Assembly: GCF_014860165.1 (NCBI RefSeq)
Contig: NZ_JACZKG010000015.1
Location: 1-64,000 of the forward strand
Direction of reading: 5' to 3'
Source of the DNA: Devosia sp.
Lineage (GTDB): Bacteria; Pseudomonadota; Alphaproteobacteria; Rhizobiales; Devosiaceae
DNA length: 64,000 nt
Within the stretch, counting starts at the first letter, position 1. Each line of letters starts with the position of its first letter. Below the pieces are notes generated by a model. It saw nothing but the letters and a program-made list of their open reading frames with translations, was not told the origin of the DNA and searched no databases. A program made the translations under genes and the position numbers. Positions 2,315 to 61,299 of this stretch are shown piece after piece.

Positions 2315-3064
2315 TTAGGCAATCACGCCGGCTCGACCTTCCGTGGCCGCCAGCAATTCTCTTGAATAGGGCTCGACGAGCTGGCCGCTGCGCAGCAGGT
2401 CCACATCCGCCACCTCCACCACCCGCCCGTGCCGCATCACGGCCAGCCGGTCGCACAGAAAGCTCACCACCGGCAAGTTGTGCGTCACCAGCAGGAATGT
2501 CAGGCCCTGTTCCCGCCGCAAGCGCTTGAGAAGGTTGAGGATTTCGGCCTGCACCGAAACGTCCAGCGCCGAAGTCGGCTCGTCCAGCAGCAGCACTTTG
2601 GGTTCCAGCATCAGCGCCCGGGCGATCGCCACGCGCTGCCTTTGTCCACCGGAAAGCTGATGCGGAAAGCGGAACCGGAATCGCTGGTCCAGCCCCACGG
2701 CTTTTAGCATAGCCTCGACCCGCTTGCCCCGGTTCCCCACCCCATGGATGGCCAGCGGCTCACTCAGCGTCGCGTCGATGGTCTTGCGCGGATGCAGCGA
2801 GCCATAAGGGTCCTGGAACACCATCTGGCATTGTCGCGCCACCGCGCGATCCACCCCATGGCTGCGCGCCTGGCCGAGCACTGAGATGCCGCCTGTCCAA
2901 TCCGGCGCCAGCCCGGCAATGGCCCGCAATATGGTCGACTTGCCCGAGCCGCTCTCGCCCACCAGGGCAAAGCTTTCGCCCTCGGCGATGTCGAGATTGA
3001 CCCCATGCACCACCTTGGTGTCGCCATAGGAAATATCGAGGTTGGAAAGCCTGATCGCGCTCAT
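2315..3064 (-). CDS. Dipeptide/oligopeptide ABC transporter ATPase (DppF/OppF type)
   Basis: The 249-residue protein is one of two cytoplasmic ATPases that power peptide (or nickel) import. It has Walker A GESGSGKST (about residues 37-45), signature LSGGQRQRVAIARAL, Walker B VLLLDEPTSALD and switch His in VTHN. The ATG at 3064 overlaps the upstream stop as ATGA, which argues for translational coupling and against the in-frame start 12 bases earlier. It is shorter than typical DppF (around 320-330 residues) because it lacks most of the C-terminal oligopeptide-binding-associated region. The substrate is inferred from the partners. Confidence 0.88.
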   Translation of the reverse strand: MSAIRLSNLDISYGDTKVVHGVNLDIAEGESFALVGESGSGKSTILRAIAGLAPDWTGGISVLGQARSHGVDRAVARQCQMVFQDPYGSLHPRKTIDATLSEPLAIHGVGNRGKRVEAMLKAVGLDQRFRFRFPHQLSGGQRQRVAIARALMLEPKVLLLDEPTSALDVSVQAEILNLLKRLRREQGLTFLLVTHNLPVVSFLCDRLAVMRHGRVVEVADVDLLRSGQLVEPYSRELLAATEGRAGVIA

Positions 3065-3894
3065 GTGCCCGCCCATTGGCTGCGGTCCAGCACGGGCAGT
3101 TCATCCCGGCTCTCATCAATGGTCGGCATCGCCGCCAGCAGTCCGCGTGTGTAGGGATGCCGGGCGCTATCGAGTTCGCCCGCCGCGCATTCCTCTACCA
3201 CCGTGCCCGAATTCATCACCAGGATGCGGTCGCAATAGCGGCTGACCAGGTTCAGGTCGTGGCTGATCAGGATCAGCCCCATGCCCTTGGTCGTCACCAG
3301 ATCGTCGATGATGTCGAGCACCTGTGCCTGCACGCTCACGTCGAGCGCCGAAGTCGGTTCGTCGGCGATGAGCAGCTCGGGTCCGGGGATCAGCATCATG
3401 GCGATCATCACCCGCTGCCCCATGCCACCCGAAACCTCATGCGGGTACAGTCCGGCCACGCGCTTCGGATCGTTGATCCGCACTGCTTCCAGCATGGTCA
3501 GGATGCGCTCATTGACTTCGCGCCGCGGCAGCTTCTCATGCGTCACCAAGGCTTCGGCGATCTGCTCGCCGACAGTCATGACCGGGTTCAGCGAGAACTT
3601 GGGGTCCTGCATCACCATCGAAATGCGTGCGCCCCTGATCGAGCGCATCTGCTTCTCGCTCTGGCGGAGAATGTCCACACCCTCGAACGCCAGCCGGTCC
3701 GCCGTCACCAGCCCCGGCTTGCGGATCAGCTTGAGGATAGCCCGGCCCGTCATCGACTTGCCCGACCCACTCTCGCCCACGATCCCCAGGCGTTCCCGCC
3801 CGAGATCGAACGAAATCCCCTTCACCACCTCGACCCGCCCGCGATGGGTGGGGAAGCTGACGCGCAGGTTCTTGACTTCAAGCATGGGCGCCAT
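3061..3894 (-). CDS. Dipeptide/oligopeptide ABC transporter ATPase (DppD/OppD type)
   Basis: The 277-residue protein is the second ATPase of the importer. It has Walker A GESGSGKSM, signature VSGGMGQRVMIAMML, Walker B LLIADEPTSALD and H-loop LISHD; all catalytic residues are present. The MGQR form of the signature is common in DppD proteins. The ATG at 3894 overlaps the upstream permease stop; an in-frame GTG at 3897 is an alternative. It lies inside the tight permease-permease-ATPase-ATPase-GAF operon, where every junction overlaps or nearly so. Confidence 0.9.
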   Translation of the reverse strand: MAPMLEVKNLRVSFPTHRGRVEVVKGISFDLGRERLGIVGESGSGKSMTGRAILKLIRKPGLVTADRLAFEGVDILRQSEKQMRSIRGARISMVMQDPKFSLNPVMTVGEQIAEALVTHEKLPRREVNERILTMLEAVRINDPKRVAGLYPHEVSGGMGQRVMIAMMLIPGPELLIADEPTSALDVSVQAQVLDIIDDLVTTKGMGLILISHDLNLVSRYCDRILVMNSGTVVEECAAGELDSARHPYTRGLLAAMPTIDESRDELPVLDRSQWAGT

Positions 3895-4793
3895 CACTTG
3901 CCCTCGCTCTTGGGGTCAAGCACGTCGCGCAGCCCATCGCCGAGGAAGCAGAACCCGAGGCTGACAATGATGATGGCGAACCCCGGCATCGTCGCCACCC
4001 ACCACTGATCGAGGATGAATGTCCGCCCGCGCGAGATCATCGCGCCCCATTCCGGCAGCGGCGGCTGCGCGCCCAGACCGATAAAGCCCAGGCCCGCGGC
4101 GGTGAGGATTACCCCGGCCATATCGAGCGTCACCCGGATGATCATCGAACTCGTACACAGAGGCAGCACATGCTGCACGATCACCCGTAGCGGGCTCGCG
4201 CCCTGCAGCCGCACTGCGGCAATGAACTCCGCGTTACGGATCGTCAGCGTCTCCGCCCGCGCAATCCGCGCATAGGCTGGCCACGAGGTGATGGCGATGG
4301 CGATGATCGCGTTGTTGATGCCGGGCCCCAACGCCGCCACGAAGGCCAGCGCCAGGATCAGCTTGGGCATCGACAGGAAGATATCGGTGAAGCCCATCAG
4401 CAGCCGGTCGGTCCAGCCGCCGAAATAGCCGGATACGGCGCCGACCAGCAGGCCGAGTGGCGCCGAGATCAGCGCCACCAGCAGCACGATGGTCAGCGTG
4501 ATCTGGCTGCCCCAGATCACCCGCGAAAAGATATCCCGCCCCAGCTCATCGGTGCCCATCCAGTGCAGGCTCGAAGGCGGCGCCAGCCGGTTGGCCAGGT
4601 CCTGCCCGGTGGCGGAGTAGGGCGCCAGCCAGGGCGCAAGGATCGCCGTCAGGATGAGAACGATGATGATCACCCCGCCCACCACCGAAAGCGGATTGCG
4701 GAGGAGAGCGGTAAACACCCGATAAGCCCGCCCGGCATTGGCCTGCCAGCGCGAGGACGGGGAATCGTCGAGCAGCCAGTCGCGTGTTGCCAT
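3894..4793 (-). CDS. Dipeptide/oligopeptide ABC transporter permease (DppC type)
   Basis: The 299-residue inner-membrane permease has an N-terminal cytoplasmic stretch, then TM1 with the DppC motif NPLSVVGG and LAPYS, the loop GTDELGRDIFSRVIWG, about five more TM segments and the EAA ATPase-contact loop near GASPLRVIVQHVLP. The start ATG at 4793 overlaps the stop of the upstream permease, giving the natural family length; a longer in-frame extension to 4946 lies inside the neighbour and is rejected. Confidence 0.92.
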   Translation of the reverse strand: MATRDWLLDDSPSSRWQANAGRAYRVFTALLRNPLSVVGGVIIIVLILTAILAPWLAPYSATGQDLANRLAPPSSLHWMGTDELGRDIFSRVIWGSQITLTIVLLVALISAPLGLLVGAVSGYFGGWTDRLLMGFTDIFLSMPKLILALAFVAALGPGINNAIIAIAITSWPAYARIARAETLTIRNAEFIAAVRLQGASPLRVIVQHVLPLCTSSMIIRVTLDMAGVILTAAGLGFIGLGAQPPLPEWGAMISRGRTFILDQWWVATMPGFAIIIVSLGFCFLGDGLRDVLDPKSEGK

Positions 4794-5866
4794 CACCGCG
4801 CCCTCGGGTCCAGAACGCGATACAGCACGTCGCTGATCTTGTTGATGAAAATGAACACCGCCCCGATGACCAGCGTCGAACCCAGCACCGCATTCATGTC
4901 GGCGTTGAGCAAAGCCGTCGTGAGGTAATTGCCGATCCCCGGCCACGAAAACACCGTCTCGATCATGACCGACCCTTCCAGCAGCCCCGCATAGCTCAGC
5001 CCGATCACCGTGATGAGCGGAACGCGGATGGGATTGAACGCATGCCGCCAGATCACCACGCGCTCCGGCACGCCCTTGACCCGCGCCGTAGTGACGAATT
5101 CCTGGCTGAGCTGGTCGAGCATGAACGACCGCGTCATCCGCGCGATATAGGCCAAGCTGAAAAAGCCCAGCACCGATGCCGGCAGGATCAGGTGATGGAC
5201 CGCATTCCAGAAGATCTCGAACTCGCCCTTGATCAGGCTGTCCACGAGCAGGAGCCCAGTCACCGGCTCGACCAGCCCGTCATAGAAGATGTCCAGCCGT
5301 CCCGGCCCGCCGACCCAGCGCAGCCGCGCATAGAACAGCGCCAGTCCCACCAGCCCCAGCCAGAAGGCCGGCATGGAATAGCCCAATAGCCCCACGACCC
5401 GGATGATCTGGTCGATCACCGAGCCCTGCCGGCTCGCCGCGATCACCCCCAGCGGCACCCCGAGTGCTACCCCGATGATGATGCCGATGGTGGCCATTTC
5501 CAGCGTCGCCGGAAAGAAGCGGCTGAGGTCCTCCACAACCGGCCGTCCGGTGCTGACCGATTGTCCGAGATCGCCCGAGAACACATTGACCACATAGTGG
5601 AAGAACTGAACCGGCAGCGGCTGGTCCAAGCCCATCGCCACCCGCGCCGCCTCATAGACCTCGTTGCTGGCCCTGTCACCGACCACGGCCAGCACCGGGT
5701 CGATCGGGATCACGCGCCCGATGAAGAAGGTGATGGCCAGCAGGCCCAGAAAGGTGAGGAAAACCGTCGCCACAAAGCCCACTGTCGCCGAAAGACCACG
5801 GCCCCACTTGCGCCGGCTAGGCGCAACGGGGGTGGGCGACATGGCAATCTGCGGCTCCAGGCTCAC
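4793..5866 (-). CDS. Dipeptide/oligopeptide ABC transporter permease (DppB type)
   Basis: This roughly 357-residue inner-membrane permease is the first gene of the minus-strand transporter operon. DppB features are IPIDPVLAVVGD after TM1, GLDQPLPVQFFHYV, the segment DLGQSVSTGRPV, LLGYSMPAFWLGL and the EAA loop TTARVKGVPERVVIWRHAF. The start is uncertain: I prefer the GTG at 5866, which has TGGAG about 9 bases upstream; ATG 5842 and TTG 5890 are in-frame alternatives. It is transcribed divergently from the XRE-cupin regulator across a 132-base gap holding an 11-bp inverted repeat. Confidence 0.88.
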   Translation of the reverse strand: MSLEPQIAMSPTPVAPSRRKWGRGLSATVGFVATVFLTFLGLLAITFFIGRVIPIDPVLAVVGDRASNEVYEAARVAMGLDQPLPVQFFHYVVNVFSGDLGQSVSTGRPVVEDLSRFFPATLEMATIGIIIGVALGVPLGVIAASRQGSVIDQIIRVVGLLGYSMPAFWLGLVGLALFYARLRWVGGPGRLDIFYDGLVEPVTGLLLVDSLIKGEFEIFWNAVHHLILPASVLGFFSLAYIARMTRSFMLDQLSQEFVTTARVKGVPERVVIWRHAFNPIRVPLITVIGLSYAGLLEGSVMIETVFSWPGIGNYLTTALLNADMNAVLGSTLVIGAVFIFINKISDVLYRVLDPRAR

Positions 5867-5943
5867 GCGAAAAATCTCCAGAGAAAACAAGACTCTCGGC
5901 CTGCAAGATGACTCTCTCGCAGACTGTGAAGGCCCTCACATTT

Positions 5944-5997
5944 CGCTTCCACCATACAGAAAACTTTGCTTATATCAAAAAAATTTTGGTGGAAGCG
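5944..5997. promoter_or_regulatory. 11-bp inverted repeat between divergent transporter and regulator genes
   Basis: CGCTTCCACCA (5944-5954) and TGGTGGAAGCG (5987-5997) are perfect reverse complements separated by 32 bases of A/T-rich sequence. Arm centres are about 43 bp apart, near four helical turns. The right arm contains the GGTGGAAG ribosome-binding site of the XRE-cupin gene (start 5999). It could be a two-site operator for that regulator, or an mRNA stem that hides the ribosome-binding site if transcription starts upstream of the left arm. Confidence 0.6.
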
Positions 5998-5998
5998 G

Positions 5999-6676
5999 AT
6001 GGCAGGCGAAGCATTGACTAAGGCTGAGACGGAAGGGCACCCCAAGGTGGGCGCCCTGATCCGCGCCCGTCGCCGCCAGCAGCATATGACGCTCGAGGCG
6101 CTGGGCAAGTCTGCCGAAGTCTCCGTTGGCTATCTCAGCCAGGTCGAGCGCGACCACGCCACCCCCTCGCTCGGCACGCTGGCGCAGATTGCCCGCGCGC
6201 TCGGCGTCGGCATCGACTATTTCGTCTCCGCCCCGACGGCGCAGAATGCGCTGACCCGCGCTGGCGAGCGCAACCGCTTCTCCGTCGATGGCTCCTCCAT
6301 CATCTATGAACGTCTGGGCGCCGATTTCCCCGGCAACCAGCTTTCGAGCTTCGTGATGACGGTGCCGCCGGGCTACCGCTCTGAAACAGTGGCGCATGAG
6401 GGCGAGGAAATTCTCTATGTGCTGGAAGGCGCTATCACCCAGCGCCTCGATGGCGAGGAAATGCTGATGCGGGCGGGCGATAGCCTGCATTTCCGCGGCA
6501 ACCGCCCCCATTCATGGTCAAACCACACCGATCAACCGGCGCGCCTTCTCTGGACCGGCACGCTCGCGCTGTTCCGCTCCTCGGCCAAGCCTAGTCGGCA
6601 GGTCGCAGCGGTTGCCAACCCCGGTTTTCCCAAGCCGGCGAAAAACAAGAAAATCGTCAAACAGGAGAAACGCTGA
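5999..6676 (+). CDS. XRE-family regulator with C-terminal cupin domain
   Basis: The 225-residue cytoplasmic regulator has an N-terminal helix-turn-helix (about residues 15-75: VGALIRARRRQQ, LEALGKSAEVSVGYLSQVE) and a C-terminal cupin_2 barrel (about 110-190: LSSFVMTVPPGY, HEGEEILYVLEGAI, AGDSLHFRGNRPHSW), which normally senses a small ligand. The ATG at 5999 follows GGTGGAAG; an upstream in-frame ATG at 5966 would fall in the inverted repeat. Its stop overlaps the start of the binding-protein gene, and it diverges from the permease operon, so it very likely controls this transporter and itself. The ligand could be the imported substrate or its breakdown product. Confidence 0.92.
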   Translation: MAGEALTKAETEGHPKVGALIRARRRQQHMTLEALGKSAEVSVGYLSQVERDHATPSLGTLAQIARALGVGIDYFVSAPTAQNALTRAGERNRFSVDGSSIIYERLGADFPGNQLSSFVMTVPPGYRSETVAHEGEEILYVLEGAITQRLDGEEMLMRAGDSLHFRGNRPHSWSNHTDQPARLLWTGTLALFRSSAKPSRQVAAVANPGFPKPAKNKKIVKQEKR

Positions 6677-8265
6677 TGAAAACGTTCCGTGCCGCCTTGC
6701 TGGCCACGGCGCTGGCCCTGCCTCTGGGCAGTGTCGCCGCCTATGCCGCCACCCCTGCCGATGCCCTGGTCATCGCCCAGAACATCGACGACATCGTCGC
6801 GCTCGACCCGGCCCAGGCCTATGAGTTCACCTCGGGCGAGATCAACACCAACGTCTATGATCGCCTGGTGCAATACGAGGCTGAGGATACAACTACGCTC
6901 GTCGGCGGCCTCGCCTCAGAATGGGTGGCCGACGACGCCGCCAAGACCATCACCTTCACCCTGCGCGATGGCGCGACCTTTGCCTCCGGCAATCCGGTCC
7001 GCCCCGAGGACGTGCTGTTCTCGTTCAAGCGCGTGGTGACGCTCAACCTCACCCCGGCTTTCATCCTGACCCAGCTCGGCTGGACCCCCGAGAATATCGA
7101 CGCCATGGTCACCATTGCCGATGGCAAGGTCGTGGTGAAATACGAGGGCGATTTCTCCTCCGCCTTCGTGCTCAACGTGCTGGCCGCCCGCCCGGCCTCC
7201 ATCGTCGACGAAGTGCTGGTCTCCCAGCATGTCGAGGGCGACGACTGGGGCAATGCCTGGCTCAACACCAACTCGGCCGGCTCCGGCCCCTTCGTGCTGA
7301 CCGATTATCGTCCTGCAGAAATCGTCCGCCTTACCGCGAACCCGACCTATTTCAAGGGCGCGCCGGCCATGGCTTCGGTCATCATCCGCCACGTCGCCGA
7401 AGCCGCCACCCAGCAGCTGCTGCTGACCTCGGGTGACGTCGATATCGCCAAGAACCTGACGCCCGACCAGATCGCCGGCCTCCCGGCGGATACCGTCAAG
7501 GTCGAGACCTATCCGCAGGCCGCCGTCCACTTCCTCTCCTTCAACCAGAAGGAAGAGTCGCTGACCCCGCCGGCCGTCTGGGAAGCCGCCCGTTACCTCG
7601 TCGACTATGACGGGATGACCCAGTCCTTCCTCAAGGGGCAGATGGAAATCCACCAGGCTTTCTGGCCCAAGGGCTTCCCCGGCTCCTATGACGAGACGCC
7701 GTTCACCTACGATGTTGCAAAGGCCAAGCAGATCCTGGCCGATGCCGGCATCACCACGCCGATCGATGTCACCCTCGACGTGATCAACGCCACCCCGTTC
7801 ACCGATATGGCGCAGTCGCTGCAGGCCACCTTTGCCGAAGCCGGCATCAACTTCGAAATCCTGCCCGGCACTGGCGCCCAGGTCATCACCAAATATCGCG
7901 AGCGTACCCACCAGGCCATGCTGCTGTACTGGGGCCCTGACTTCATGGACCCGCATTCCAATGCCAAGGCCTTTGCCTATAACTCCAACAATGCCGATGA
8001 CAATTACACCGCCACCACCACATGGCGGAACGCCTGGGCCGTGCCGGAGGAGCTGAACGCGAAGGTCACCGCTGCCCTCGCCGAACCCGATCAGGCCAAG
8101 CGCAACGAGGCCTATATCGAGATCCAGAAGGAAGCCCAGGCGTCCTCACCGATCGTCATCATGTTCCAGGCCGCACTGACCATTGCCATGGCCAACAATG
8201 TCGAAGGCTACGTCAACGGCGCCACCTCCGACTTCGTGTACTACCGCCTTGTAACTAAGCAATAA
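6676..8265 (+). CDS. Peptide ABC transporter substrate-binding protein (SBP_bac_5 family)
   Basis: The 529-residue periplasmic binding protein is of the DppA/OppA type. A signal peptide covers about the first 25 residues (MKTFRAALLATALALPLGS, then AYA-ATP), and the SBP_bac_5 domain fills the rest (DRLVQYEAEDTTTLVGGLASEW, FTLRDGATFASGNPVRPEDV, AEAATQQLLLTSGDVDIA). It delivers substrate to the permeases encoded on the opposite strand. AGGAG precedes the ATG, which overlaps the regulator stop (TGATG). It lacks an obvious lipobox Cys, so it should be soluble. Confidence 0.93.
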   Translation: MKTFRAALLATALALPLGSVAAYAATPADALVIAQNIDDIVALDPAQAYEFTSGEINTNVYDRLVQYEAEDTTTLVGGLASEWVADDAAKTITFTLRDGATFASGNPVRPEDVLFSFKRVVTLNLTPAFILTQLGWTPENIDAMVTIADGKVVVKYEGDFSSAFVLNVLAARPASIVDEVLVSQHVEGDDWGNAWLNTNSAGSGPFVLTDYRPAEIVRLTANPTYFKGAPAMASVIIRHVAEAATQQLLLTSGDVDIAKNLTPDQIAGLPADTVKVETYPQAAVHFLSFNQKEESLTPPAVWEAARYLVDYDGMTQSFLKGQMEIHQAFWPKGFPGSYDETPFTYDVAKAKQILADAGITTPIDVTLDVINATPFTDMAQSLQATFAEAGINFEILPGTGAQVITKYRERTHQAMLLYWGPDFMDPHSNAKAFAYNSNNADDNYTATTTWRNAWAVPEELNAKVTAALAEPDQAKRNEAYIEIQKEAQASSPIVIMFQAALTIAMANNVEGYVNGATSDFVYYRLVTKQ

Positions 8266-8359: not shown

Positions 8360-8388
8360 GTCACCCTCGGGTCAAGCCCGAGGGTGAC
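8360..8388. repeat. Perfect palindrome of the CCCTCGGG repeat family
   Basis: Twelve-base arms GTCACCCTCGGG and CCCGAGGGTGAC with loop TCAAG. It is the same sequence as the pair at 1709-1793 and resembles part of the putA insert. It lies between the terminator and the M24 peptidase start. Confidence 0.75.
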
Positions 8389-8433: not shown

Positions 8434-9531
8434 ATGAACCCCACCCTCACCACTCGCATGGCCAACCTCCGCGCCCGGATGGCTGCCACCAAGACCGATC
8501 TCGTGGTCATCGGACCCTCCAGCCACATGCTCTACCTGGCCGATCTCTCGCCGCACGGCGATGAGCGCCCGGTGCTGCTGATGGTGAGCCCGACCTTCGC
8601 CGGCTTCCTCATGCCCGCACTCAATGTCGACAGCGCCCGCCAGCACACCGATCTGCCCTTCTTCCCATGGGCCGATGCCGACGGTCCCGATGCCGCACTG
8701 GCCGAACTGCTCGCTGCCACCGGAGTGCCGGCTGCCCCTTCCATCGTCCTCGACGAAACCATGCGGACTGATTTCGCGCTGCTCGTACTCGACGCTCTTG
8801 GCGGCGCCACGAGGCGCTTTACCACCGACACCGTCGGCTATCTCCGCTCCCGCAAGGACGATGCCGAATACGATGCGCTCAAGAAGAGCGCCGTCCTCAA
8901 CGATGCCGCCATGGCCGCCGGCTTCGCCGCCCTGCGCCCCGACATTACCGAATACGAAGTCGCCACCGTCATCCGCGATTTTTACAAGGCCAATGGCGCC
9001 ACCACCGAATTCTGCTCGGTCTGCTTCGGTCCCAACGGCGCCTTCCCGCATCACCATACCGGCGAGACCCAGCTCAAGGCCGGCGATGCCGTCCTCATCG
9101 ACACCGGCGGCCGCATCCATGGCTACCCCTCCGACATGACCCGTGTGGGCTATTTCGGCACGGCCCCCGAAGGCTTCGGCCAAATCCACTCGGTCCTCGA
9201 CCGTGCCGTCGAAGCCGCCATCGCCGCCGCCAGGCCCGGCGCAAAAGCCAGGGATGTCGACAAGGCCGCCCGCGACATCATCACCGCGGCTGGCTACGGC
9301 CCCAATTTCCTGCACCGCACCGGCCATGGCCTGGGCATCGACATCCACGAGACGCCCTACATCACCGCGACGTCAGACACAGTGCTCGAAGAGGGTATGG
9401 TCTTCTCCATCGAGCCCGGCATTTACCTGCAGGGCCAGTTCGGCCTGCGCCTGGAAGAGATCGTCATCATTCGCAATGGGGTGGCCGAAATCCTGTCCGA
9501 CATGCCCCGAACGGCGGTCGCGGGCGGTTGA
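8434..9531 (+). CDS. M24 family metallopeptidase (Xaa-Pro dipeptidase/aminopeptidase type)
   Basis: The 365-residue cytoplasmic enzyme has a creatinase-like N-terminal domain and a pita-bread catalytic domain from about residue 145. All five metal ligands can be placed: Asp223 in DTGG, Asp234 in SDMTR, His298 in TGHGLG, Glu327 in SIEPG and Glu341 in LEE. Such enzymes cleave Xaa-Pro bonds in peptides; other M24 members act on different substrates, so the specificity is inferred. It sits downstream of the peptide-binding protein, and putA lies at the other end of the cluster, fitting a peptide-import and proline-use role. Confidence 0.88.
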   Translation: MNPTLTTRMANLRARMAATKTDLVVIGPSSHMLYLADLSPHGDERPVLLMVSPTFAGFLMPALNVDSARQHTDLPFFPWADADGPDAALAELLAATGVPAAPSIVLDETMRTDFALLVLDALGGATRRFTTDTVGYLRSRKDDAEYDALKKSAVLNDAAMAAGFAALRPDITEYEVATVIRDFYKANGATTEFCSVCFGPNGAFPHHHTGETQLKAGDAVLIDTGGRIHGYPSDMTRVGYFGTAPEGFGQIHSVLDRAVEAAIAAARPGAKARDVDKAARDIITAAGYGPNFLHRTGHGLGIDIHETPYITATSDTVLEEGMVFSIEPGIYLQGQFGLRLEEIVIIRNGVAEILSDMPRTAVAGG

Positions 9532-55495: not shown

Positions 55496-55572
55496 TCACC
55501 CGGCTTGTCCGGGTGATCCATCTCTCGGCATGAGTGGAGGCGGTGGATTGCCCGGACAAGCCGGGCAATGAC
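55496..55572. repeat. Double palindrome of the CCGGCTTGTCCGG family, copy 1
   Basis: Two hairpins: TCACCCGG-CTTGT-CCGGGTGA (55496-55516) and ATTGCCCGG-ACAAG-CCGGGCAAT (55547-55569), 30 bases apart. The second is the inverse form of the first. It lies between the convergent 3' ends of DUF2200 and radA. A very similar copy is at 61227-61295. Confidence 0.85.
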
Positions 55573-61222: not shown

Positions 61223-61299
61223 GTCACCACCCGGCTTGTCCGGGTGGTCCATTCTTGGCTCCGAGCCCGTGGATTGCCCGGACAAGCCGGGCAATGACG
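61223..61299. repeat. Double palindrome of the CCGGCTTGTCCGG family, copy 2
   Basis: CCACCCGG-CTTGT-CCGGGTGG (61227-61247) and ATTGCCCGG-ACAAG-CCGGGCAAT (61273-61295) match copy 1 at 55496 nearly base for base. It lies between rpsR and rplI, inside what should be one ribosomal protein operon, in a gap of 215 bases. Confidence 0.85.

Follow-up and report, generated by a model that had tools for sequence, protein, structure and literature searches.

The locus analysed in this study lies in a 64,000-nucleotide stretch of a Devosia sp. genome (the window) and consists of two divergent transcription units facing away from a common intergenic gap. On the plus strand, the gene at 5999–6676 (start ATG 5999) encodes a 225-aa transcription regulator and is followed by genes for an SBP_bac_5 solute-binding protein (6676–8265), probably in the regulator's operon, and an M24 family peptidase (8434–9531). 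The regulator carries HTH_3 (1.5e-13, residues 21–75) and Cupin_2 (2.4e-20, residues 118–186) domains, both above the gathering cut-off, and so has the XRE-cupin architecture of an N-terminal XRE-type helix-turn-helix and a C-terminal cupin. The minus strand carries an ABC operon, comprising a first permease (4793–5842, ATG 5842), a second permease of the OppC type (3894–4799), two ABC ATPases (3061–3897 and 2315–3076), and a GAF-domain protein (1812–2303), which is probably the closing gene. The first permease gene may in fact begin at a GTG at 5866, which is preceded by GGAG; the plus-strand CA at 5864–5865, belonging to this GTG, is invariant in a 54-sequence Devosia alignment.

The gene order, with the ABC operon on one side and the XRE-cupin, solute-binding protein and M24 peptidase genes on the other, is common in Devosia, Mesorhizobium, Aminobacter, Phyllobacterium, Roseibium, and others. 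Among 30 non-Devosia loci with at least 56% identity (L093–L117 and L119–L123), 25 had a divergent permease next to the XRE-cupin gene. In five Maritalea loci (L113, L114, L116, L119, and L120), a GAF homologue was found divergent from the XRE-cupin gene, and ABC genes were absent within the fetched 10 kb. This conserved gene order fits a PsdR-like local repressor of peptide uptake.

Two other kinds of repeats were observed in the window. A 25-base palindrome, CACCCTCGGG-TCAAG-CCCGAGGGTG, lies at 8362–8386 between the solute-binding protein and peptidase genes; it is REP-like and has five exact-armed copies in the genome. A further repeated element, with the ends CCCGGCTTGTC...GACAAGCCGGG and a variable middle, occurs at 55499–55565 and 61230–61291, the two window members of seven genome copies.

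The intergenic gap contains an 11-bp inverted repeat, whose left arm CGCTTCCACCA (5944–5954) and right arm TGGTGGAAGCG (5987–5997) are perfect reverse complements separated by a 32-base loop. An earlier reading of the DNA letters (the sequence-only reading) had drawn attention to this repeat, had regarded the gap as the regulatory region between the divergent ABC operon and its XRE-cupin regulator, and had taken the right arm as the Shine-Dalgarno of the regulator gene. The repeat and its spacing were confirmed, the gap does look like a regulatory region, and GGTGG at 5988–5992 (plus strand), of which 5988–5991 is conserved, is the likely Shine-Dalgarno before the ATG at 5999. The exact arm pair, with a spacing of 25–40 bases, was found at a single place in the 4.46-Mb assembly. 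The window held six inverted repeats with perfect arms of 11 bp or more and loops of 3–60, compared with a mean of 1.7 (range 0–6) in 30 first-order Markov shuffles; when the 156 bases around the repeat were Markov-shuffled, 0.2% of the shuffles contained such a repeat. The repeat is thus improbable locally, yet one or two per 64-kb window are expected by chance.

For comparison within the genus, 75 genomes were searched; 62 gave a regulator match of any kind at E 0.001 and 55, counting that of the window, had a close ortholog of about 75% identity or more. Upstream DNA was aligned for 54 Devosia sequences, again including the window's own. The full 11-bp Watson-Crick repeat was present in one of the 54, namely the window itself; it was missing even from L003, the closest relative, whose protein is about 95% identical. 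A shorter core, in which TGGTG comes 26–30 bases after CACCATA, was found in 45 of the 54.

What was conserved across these sequences is a 58-bp block at 5934–5991, and not the repeat. The block was found upstream of 54 of the 55 close Devosia orthologs, the window included. Identity was 96–100% at every position of 5965–5985 and at least 87% over 5934–5964, except at the weaker positions 5939, 5945, 5949, 5959, and 5960; position 5986 varied as well. The 22-mer core CTTTGCTTATATCAAAAAAATT, with up to three mismatches, was detected in 54 of the 75 genomes searched, which corresponded to 54 of the 55 genomes with a close ortholog and none of the 20 without one. In the window's own genome, a 21-mer core occurred once within three mismatches. 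In D. geojensis (L053/L090), the block was absent from about 105 contig bases upstream of the regulator, a length that should have sufficed, and the 22-mer core was not found elsewhere in that assembly either.

The block also extends beyond Devosia: of 44 orthologs tested from other genera, 31 had it, 28 of these being distinct. This count excluded L118 and L174, which are Devosia, L124–L134, which had 36% identity or less or were not found, and L179, L189, L190, and L191; L179, a 65% ortholog, had no visible block. Thirteen of the 44 lacked the block by rule, and diverged versions were recognised by eye in L187/L188 and L117. By the same rule, the block was kept in 24 of the 25 non-Devosia loci with a divergent permease and in none of the five Maritalea loci without ABC genes. 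The non-Devosia consensus is gCTTGGAc.ATACAaa.aatTtTGcTTa.ATCAAAaAAATTTTg.Tggga, and the Devosia sequences L048 and L055 also carry CTTGGAGCATA. Outside Devosia, the left arm mostly reads CTTGGAnnATA and the right arm mostly GATGGGAG (TTTg.Tggga), while the block between them persists; on these alignments, the 11-bp symmetry is confined to Devosia.

These comparisons bear directly on the two functions that the sequence-only reading had offered for the repeat. One was a paired operator, in which the regulator would bind both arms, about four helical turns apart, and loop the DNA. XRE proteins do bind palindromes, the arm centres are 43 bp apart, and the left arm, whose loss in close relatives had been named as speaking against a function of the repeat, is conserved in Devosia (mostly CGCTTyCACCA). 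The right arm did not follow: conservation over the 54 Devosia sequences was 94–100% at TGGTG (5987–5991) and 39–59% at 5992–5997, where little more than purine richness is kept. Conservation of both arms, which had been suggested as a check, thus held for the left arm and for the inner part of the right arm. Since the two arms also differ in sequence in other genera and the DNA between them contains a better palindrome, operators at the arms were rejected, and this explanation appears highly improbable.

The other proposal was an RNA switch, in which a transcript containing both arms would fold and the left arm would thereby mask the Shine-Dalgarno of the regulator gene. The window RNA does fold into the arm hairpin (-22.2 kcal/mol, z -2.96, with 1 of 200 shuffles as stable) and, when G-U pairs are allowed, many Devosia sequences keep about eight consecutive pairs, with L046 and L051 pairing at all 11 positions besides the window. 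Per-sequence pairing, however, revealed no covariation, because the arms were paired in 78.2% of cells compared with 78.1% in shuffled controls (222 of 500 as high; 52 distinct sequences). This is the chance level for two independently conserved stretches, one pyrimidine-rich and the other purine-rich. T5947 and T5948 are invariant while their partners drift, leaving 11 of the 52 distinct sequences unpaired at each, and outside Devosia 169 of 280 cells (60%) at the same arm positions are paired, the arms differing there while the block stays. With the full repeat restricted to one sequence and the predicted forward start falling between the arms, a switch that hides the Shine-Dalgarno was rejected and is considered very unlikely, if slightly less so than the looping arrangement.

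Instead, the block looks like a compact divergent promoter-operator, which probably serves both the ABC operon and the regulator. A consensus scan of 5800–6100 with an E. coli-type model gave a single promoter (0.1 expected), located on the minus strand at 5978–5951 and reading TTGATA-N16-TATGGT. The predicted reverse elements of the ABC operon are a -35 at 5974–5979 (TTTGAT, or TTGATA in the E. coli register), conserved in other genera, and a -10 at 5951–5956, which reads TATGGT here and often TATAGT outside Devosia. The same scan of 5800–6100 did not report a forward promoter, whose -35 is degenerate in the window. Alphaproteobacterial promoters prefer CTTGAC-N17-CTATAT, and with this preference as a guide a forward -35 is predicted at 5947–5952 (TTCCAC here; TTGGAC/G/T in other genera) and, after a 17-bp spacer, a -10 at 5970–5975 (TTATAT; mostly TTAGAT or TTACAT in other genera). 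The forward -35 of most Devosia (TTTCAC/TTCCAC) matches the consensus poorly. Other genera have CTTGGA at the -35 and TTa.AT at the -10, and in L183 CTTGAC appears shifted by one base. Across genera, the patterns read TTGGAC-N17-TTa.AT in the forward direction and TTTGAT-N17-TATAGT or TATGGT (TATGCT or TATGAT in some) in the reverse direction. Transcription is predicted to start at about 5981–5984 on the plus strand, between the arms, and at 5943–5945 on the minus strand.

The promoter map also offers an account of the repeat itself. The left arm is probably conserved because the forward -35 and the reverse -10 lie there, and the right arm would combine an operator edge with the Shine-Dalgarno in its inner half and be chance sequence in its outer half. 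Read in this way, and as probable as the promoter-operator reading of which it forms a part, the repeat is mostly a coincidence of one genome, which would mean that a strikingly perfect inverted repeat in a single genome can arise from a promoter element and a Shine-Dalgarno coinciding.

Concerning the operator, dyad symmetry was scored over 73 distinct blocks from Devosia and other genera. The strongest dyad was centred at 5982 (81% symmetric), followed by one at 5972 (73%); when columns of the A+T-rich part were shuffled, in a test run on every third block, 2 of 300 shuffles reached the 5982 dyad and 6 of 300 the 5972 dyad. The top dyad defines the operator candidate O2, CAAAA-AAA-TTTTG at 5976–5988, which overlies the start predicted for the forward promoter and touches the predicted reverse -35. 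A second, tentative operator, O1 (CAGAAAACTTTG; CAAAAAATTTTG-like in some other genera), lies at 5957–5968, centred at about 5962.5 and about two helical turns from O2. Its palindrome is clear by look in some Aminobacter and others, where it is CAAAAAATTTTG-like, and its dyad is weak by score (54% overall, 60% in other genera), being outscored by the competing dyad at 5972.

With up to two mismatches, the 14-mer O2 TCAAAAAAATTTTG occurred at three further places in the genome, each with two mismatches. One copy, TCAAGAAACTTTTG, is on the minus strand at L192:1073–1086 (G000:C80:41472–41485), shortly before an ORF that encodes a small protein rich in Met and His; it may be chance or a further target. 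Another, in L193, falls within a gap, and the next listed ORF begins over 300 bases further on. These two of the three O2-like places were inspected; both are in or near intergenic gaps, neither has an evident partner gene, and they may be further targets. In the 52% identity orthologs L187 and L188, CAAAATTTT and CAAAGAAATTTTG are kept about 20 bp apart and the rest of the block has diverged, as if the operator outlasted the promoter letters.

The block might also be a mere bidirectional sigma-70 promoter, or the site of another regulator, with the XRE-cupin protein acting elsewhere. Promoter elements do account for part of the conservation, and a palindrome, TGTGA-N6-TCACA at 5925–5940, which we take to be CRP-like, abuts the block and is exact in 15 of the 54 Devosia sequences. 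It is the sole exact copy in the 64-kb window and is located just upstream of the predicted forward -35. On the other hand, the near-invariant run at 5965–5985 exceeds what promoter hexamers need, the block has a symmetry centre at 5982, and its distribution within the genus follows that of the regulator gene; this explanation was judged unlikely, although less remote than either function of the arms.

Based on this evidence, we propose that one 58-bp block would carry two interlocked sigma-70-type promoters, the forward one for the regulator, solute-binding protein and M24 peptidase genes, and the reverse one for the ABC operon. An XRE-cupin dimer most likely binds CAAAA-AAA-TTTTG (5976–5988), perhaps with a second site two turns upstream at 5957–5968. 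The bound regulator would lie over the forward start as well as the reverse -35 and would thereby shut off both units until the cupin domain senses its ligand, probably a peptide or a breakdown product. The proposed repression of both units follows from the position of O2 over these predicted elements and from the precedent of XRE-cupin regulators in Pseudomonas aeruginosa. In this model, the conservation, the unique occurrence, the symmetry, the synteny, and the absence of a pairing constraint are observed; we infer the promoters, start sites, binding, repression and ligand, and give the model as a whole a probability of roughly 0.78. In place of the guess based on the 11-bp repeat, it would map the operator and promoters of a peptide-uptake regulator that is conserved across Hyphomicrobiales.

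In Devosia, the ABC operon may have an additional layer of control at the level of its mRNA leader. A stem-loop at 5901–5922 on the minus strand, with a 7-bp stem (5901–5907 with 5916–5922), lies after the predicted start of the ABC transcript and before the Shine-Dalgarno and shows compensatory changes in all seven pairs. Over 51 distinct sequences, the stem was paired in 90.9% of cells compared with 76.8% after shuffling, with 50 double-changed cells compared with 17.6 in the shuffles (0 of 500 as high). Thus, one shuffle test rejects the repeat hairpin yet accepts the leader stem-loop. G-U cells outnumbered A-C cells (44 versus 12), which points to minus-strand RNA rather than a DNA palindrome. 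Compared with mononucleotide shuffles, 45-base leader pieces had a mean z of -2.5, with 45 of 54 below -1, whereas the 103-base leader of the window was not more stable overall than dinucleotide shuffles (z 0.16), although the stem was still in the fold; an outer helix was partial (65.7% of cells). The stem was not evident at 24 loci outside Devosia (mean z -0.8, mononucleotide shuffles), and the claim is therefore limited to Devosia. A search of 5700–6200 with Rfam 15 covariance models gave four matches up to E 1, none at the gathering score. A T-rich stretch, TTGTTTT, lies downstream of the stem-loop, which is possibly a stabiliser or an attenuator.

A more tentative extension concerns the promoter geometry. 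The two divergent promoters might be interlocked on 33 bp, each -35 overlapping the other's -10, so that RNA polymerase at one promoter would exclude the other and one repressor site would arbitrate; this layout would be kept across Hyphomicrobiales families, with the Devosia leader stem-loop adding RNA-level control of the ABC operon. We regard this combined arrangement as doubtful at present, although if true it would be a compact natural case of polymerase competition under one repressor.

Among known regulators, PuuR of Escherichia coli, an XRE-cupin protein for putrescine, is the closest NCBIfam model to the regulator. The score against the PuuR equivalog model NF007408, however, was 57.9 bits, below the cut-off of 211, and whereas the PuuR gene sits with putrescine genes, the neighbours here are peptide-type ABC genes.

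XRE regulators are usually autoregulatory and have palindromic motifs, as outlined in the available part of PMC12565409, whose main text contains no word starting with Devosia or Rhizobi. No publication on this Devosia/Hyphomicrobiales locus appeared among the matches listed, although one may exist outside them. The available part of PMC12825309 deals with bidirectional promoters whose two directions use a single shared -10; in the five tested, the starts were 10–23 bp apart. Like these, one short stretch at our locus would serve two divergent starts, so that polymerases compete (PMC12825309). Unlike these, the two predicted -10s (5951–5956 and 5970–5975) are separate, with 13 bp between them, each predicted -35 overlaps the other's -10 by two bases, and the predicted starts are about 38 bp apart.

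A close parallel is found in P. aeruginosa, in which an eight-member XRE-cupin family, with regulons defined for six, is reported to inhibit neighbouring genes from sites that mostly fall in core promoters; the motifs of PsdR, PauR, and ErfA are palindromic (PMC7901475, in the part available). PsdR represses dppA3, encoding a peptide-binding protein, and mdpA, encoding a metallodipeptidase, both for small-peptide uptake and use (PMC7901475). The present regulator resembles PsdR, as far as that text describes it, in its XRE-cupin architecture, its linked peptide-binding protein and peptidase genes and its apparently few targets, and also in its palindromic promoter sites, a likeness by description, apart from the operator letters, and with the sites predicted here (PMC7901475). 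It differs in that the linked peptidase is of the M24 family, and in that PsdR has two sites surrounding psdR, whereas at the present locus a single intergenic block would control both a full ABC operon and the regulator's own operon (PMC7901475).
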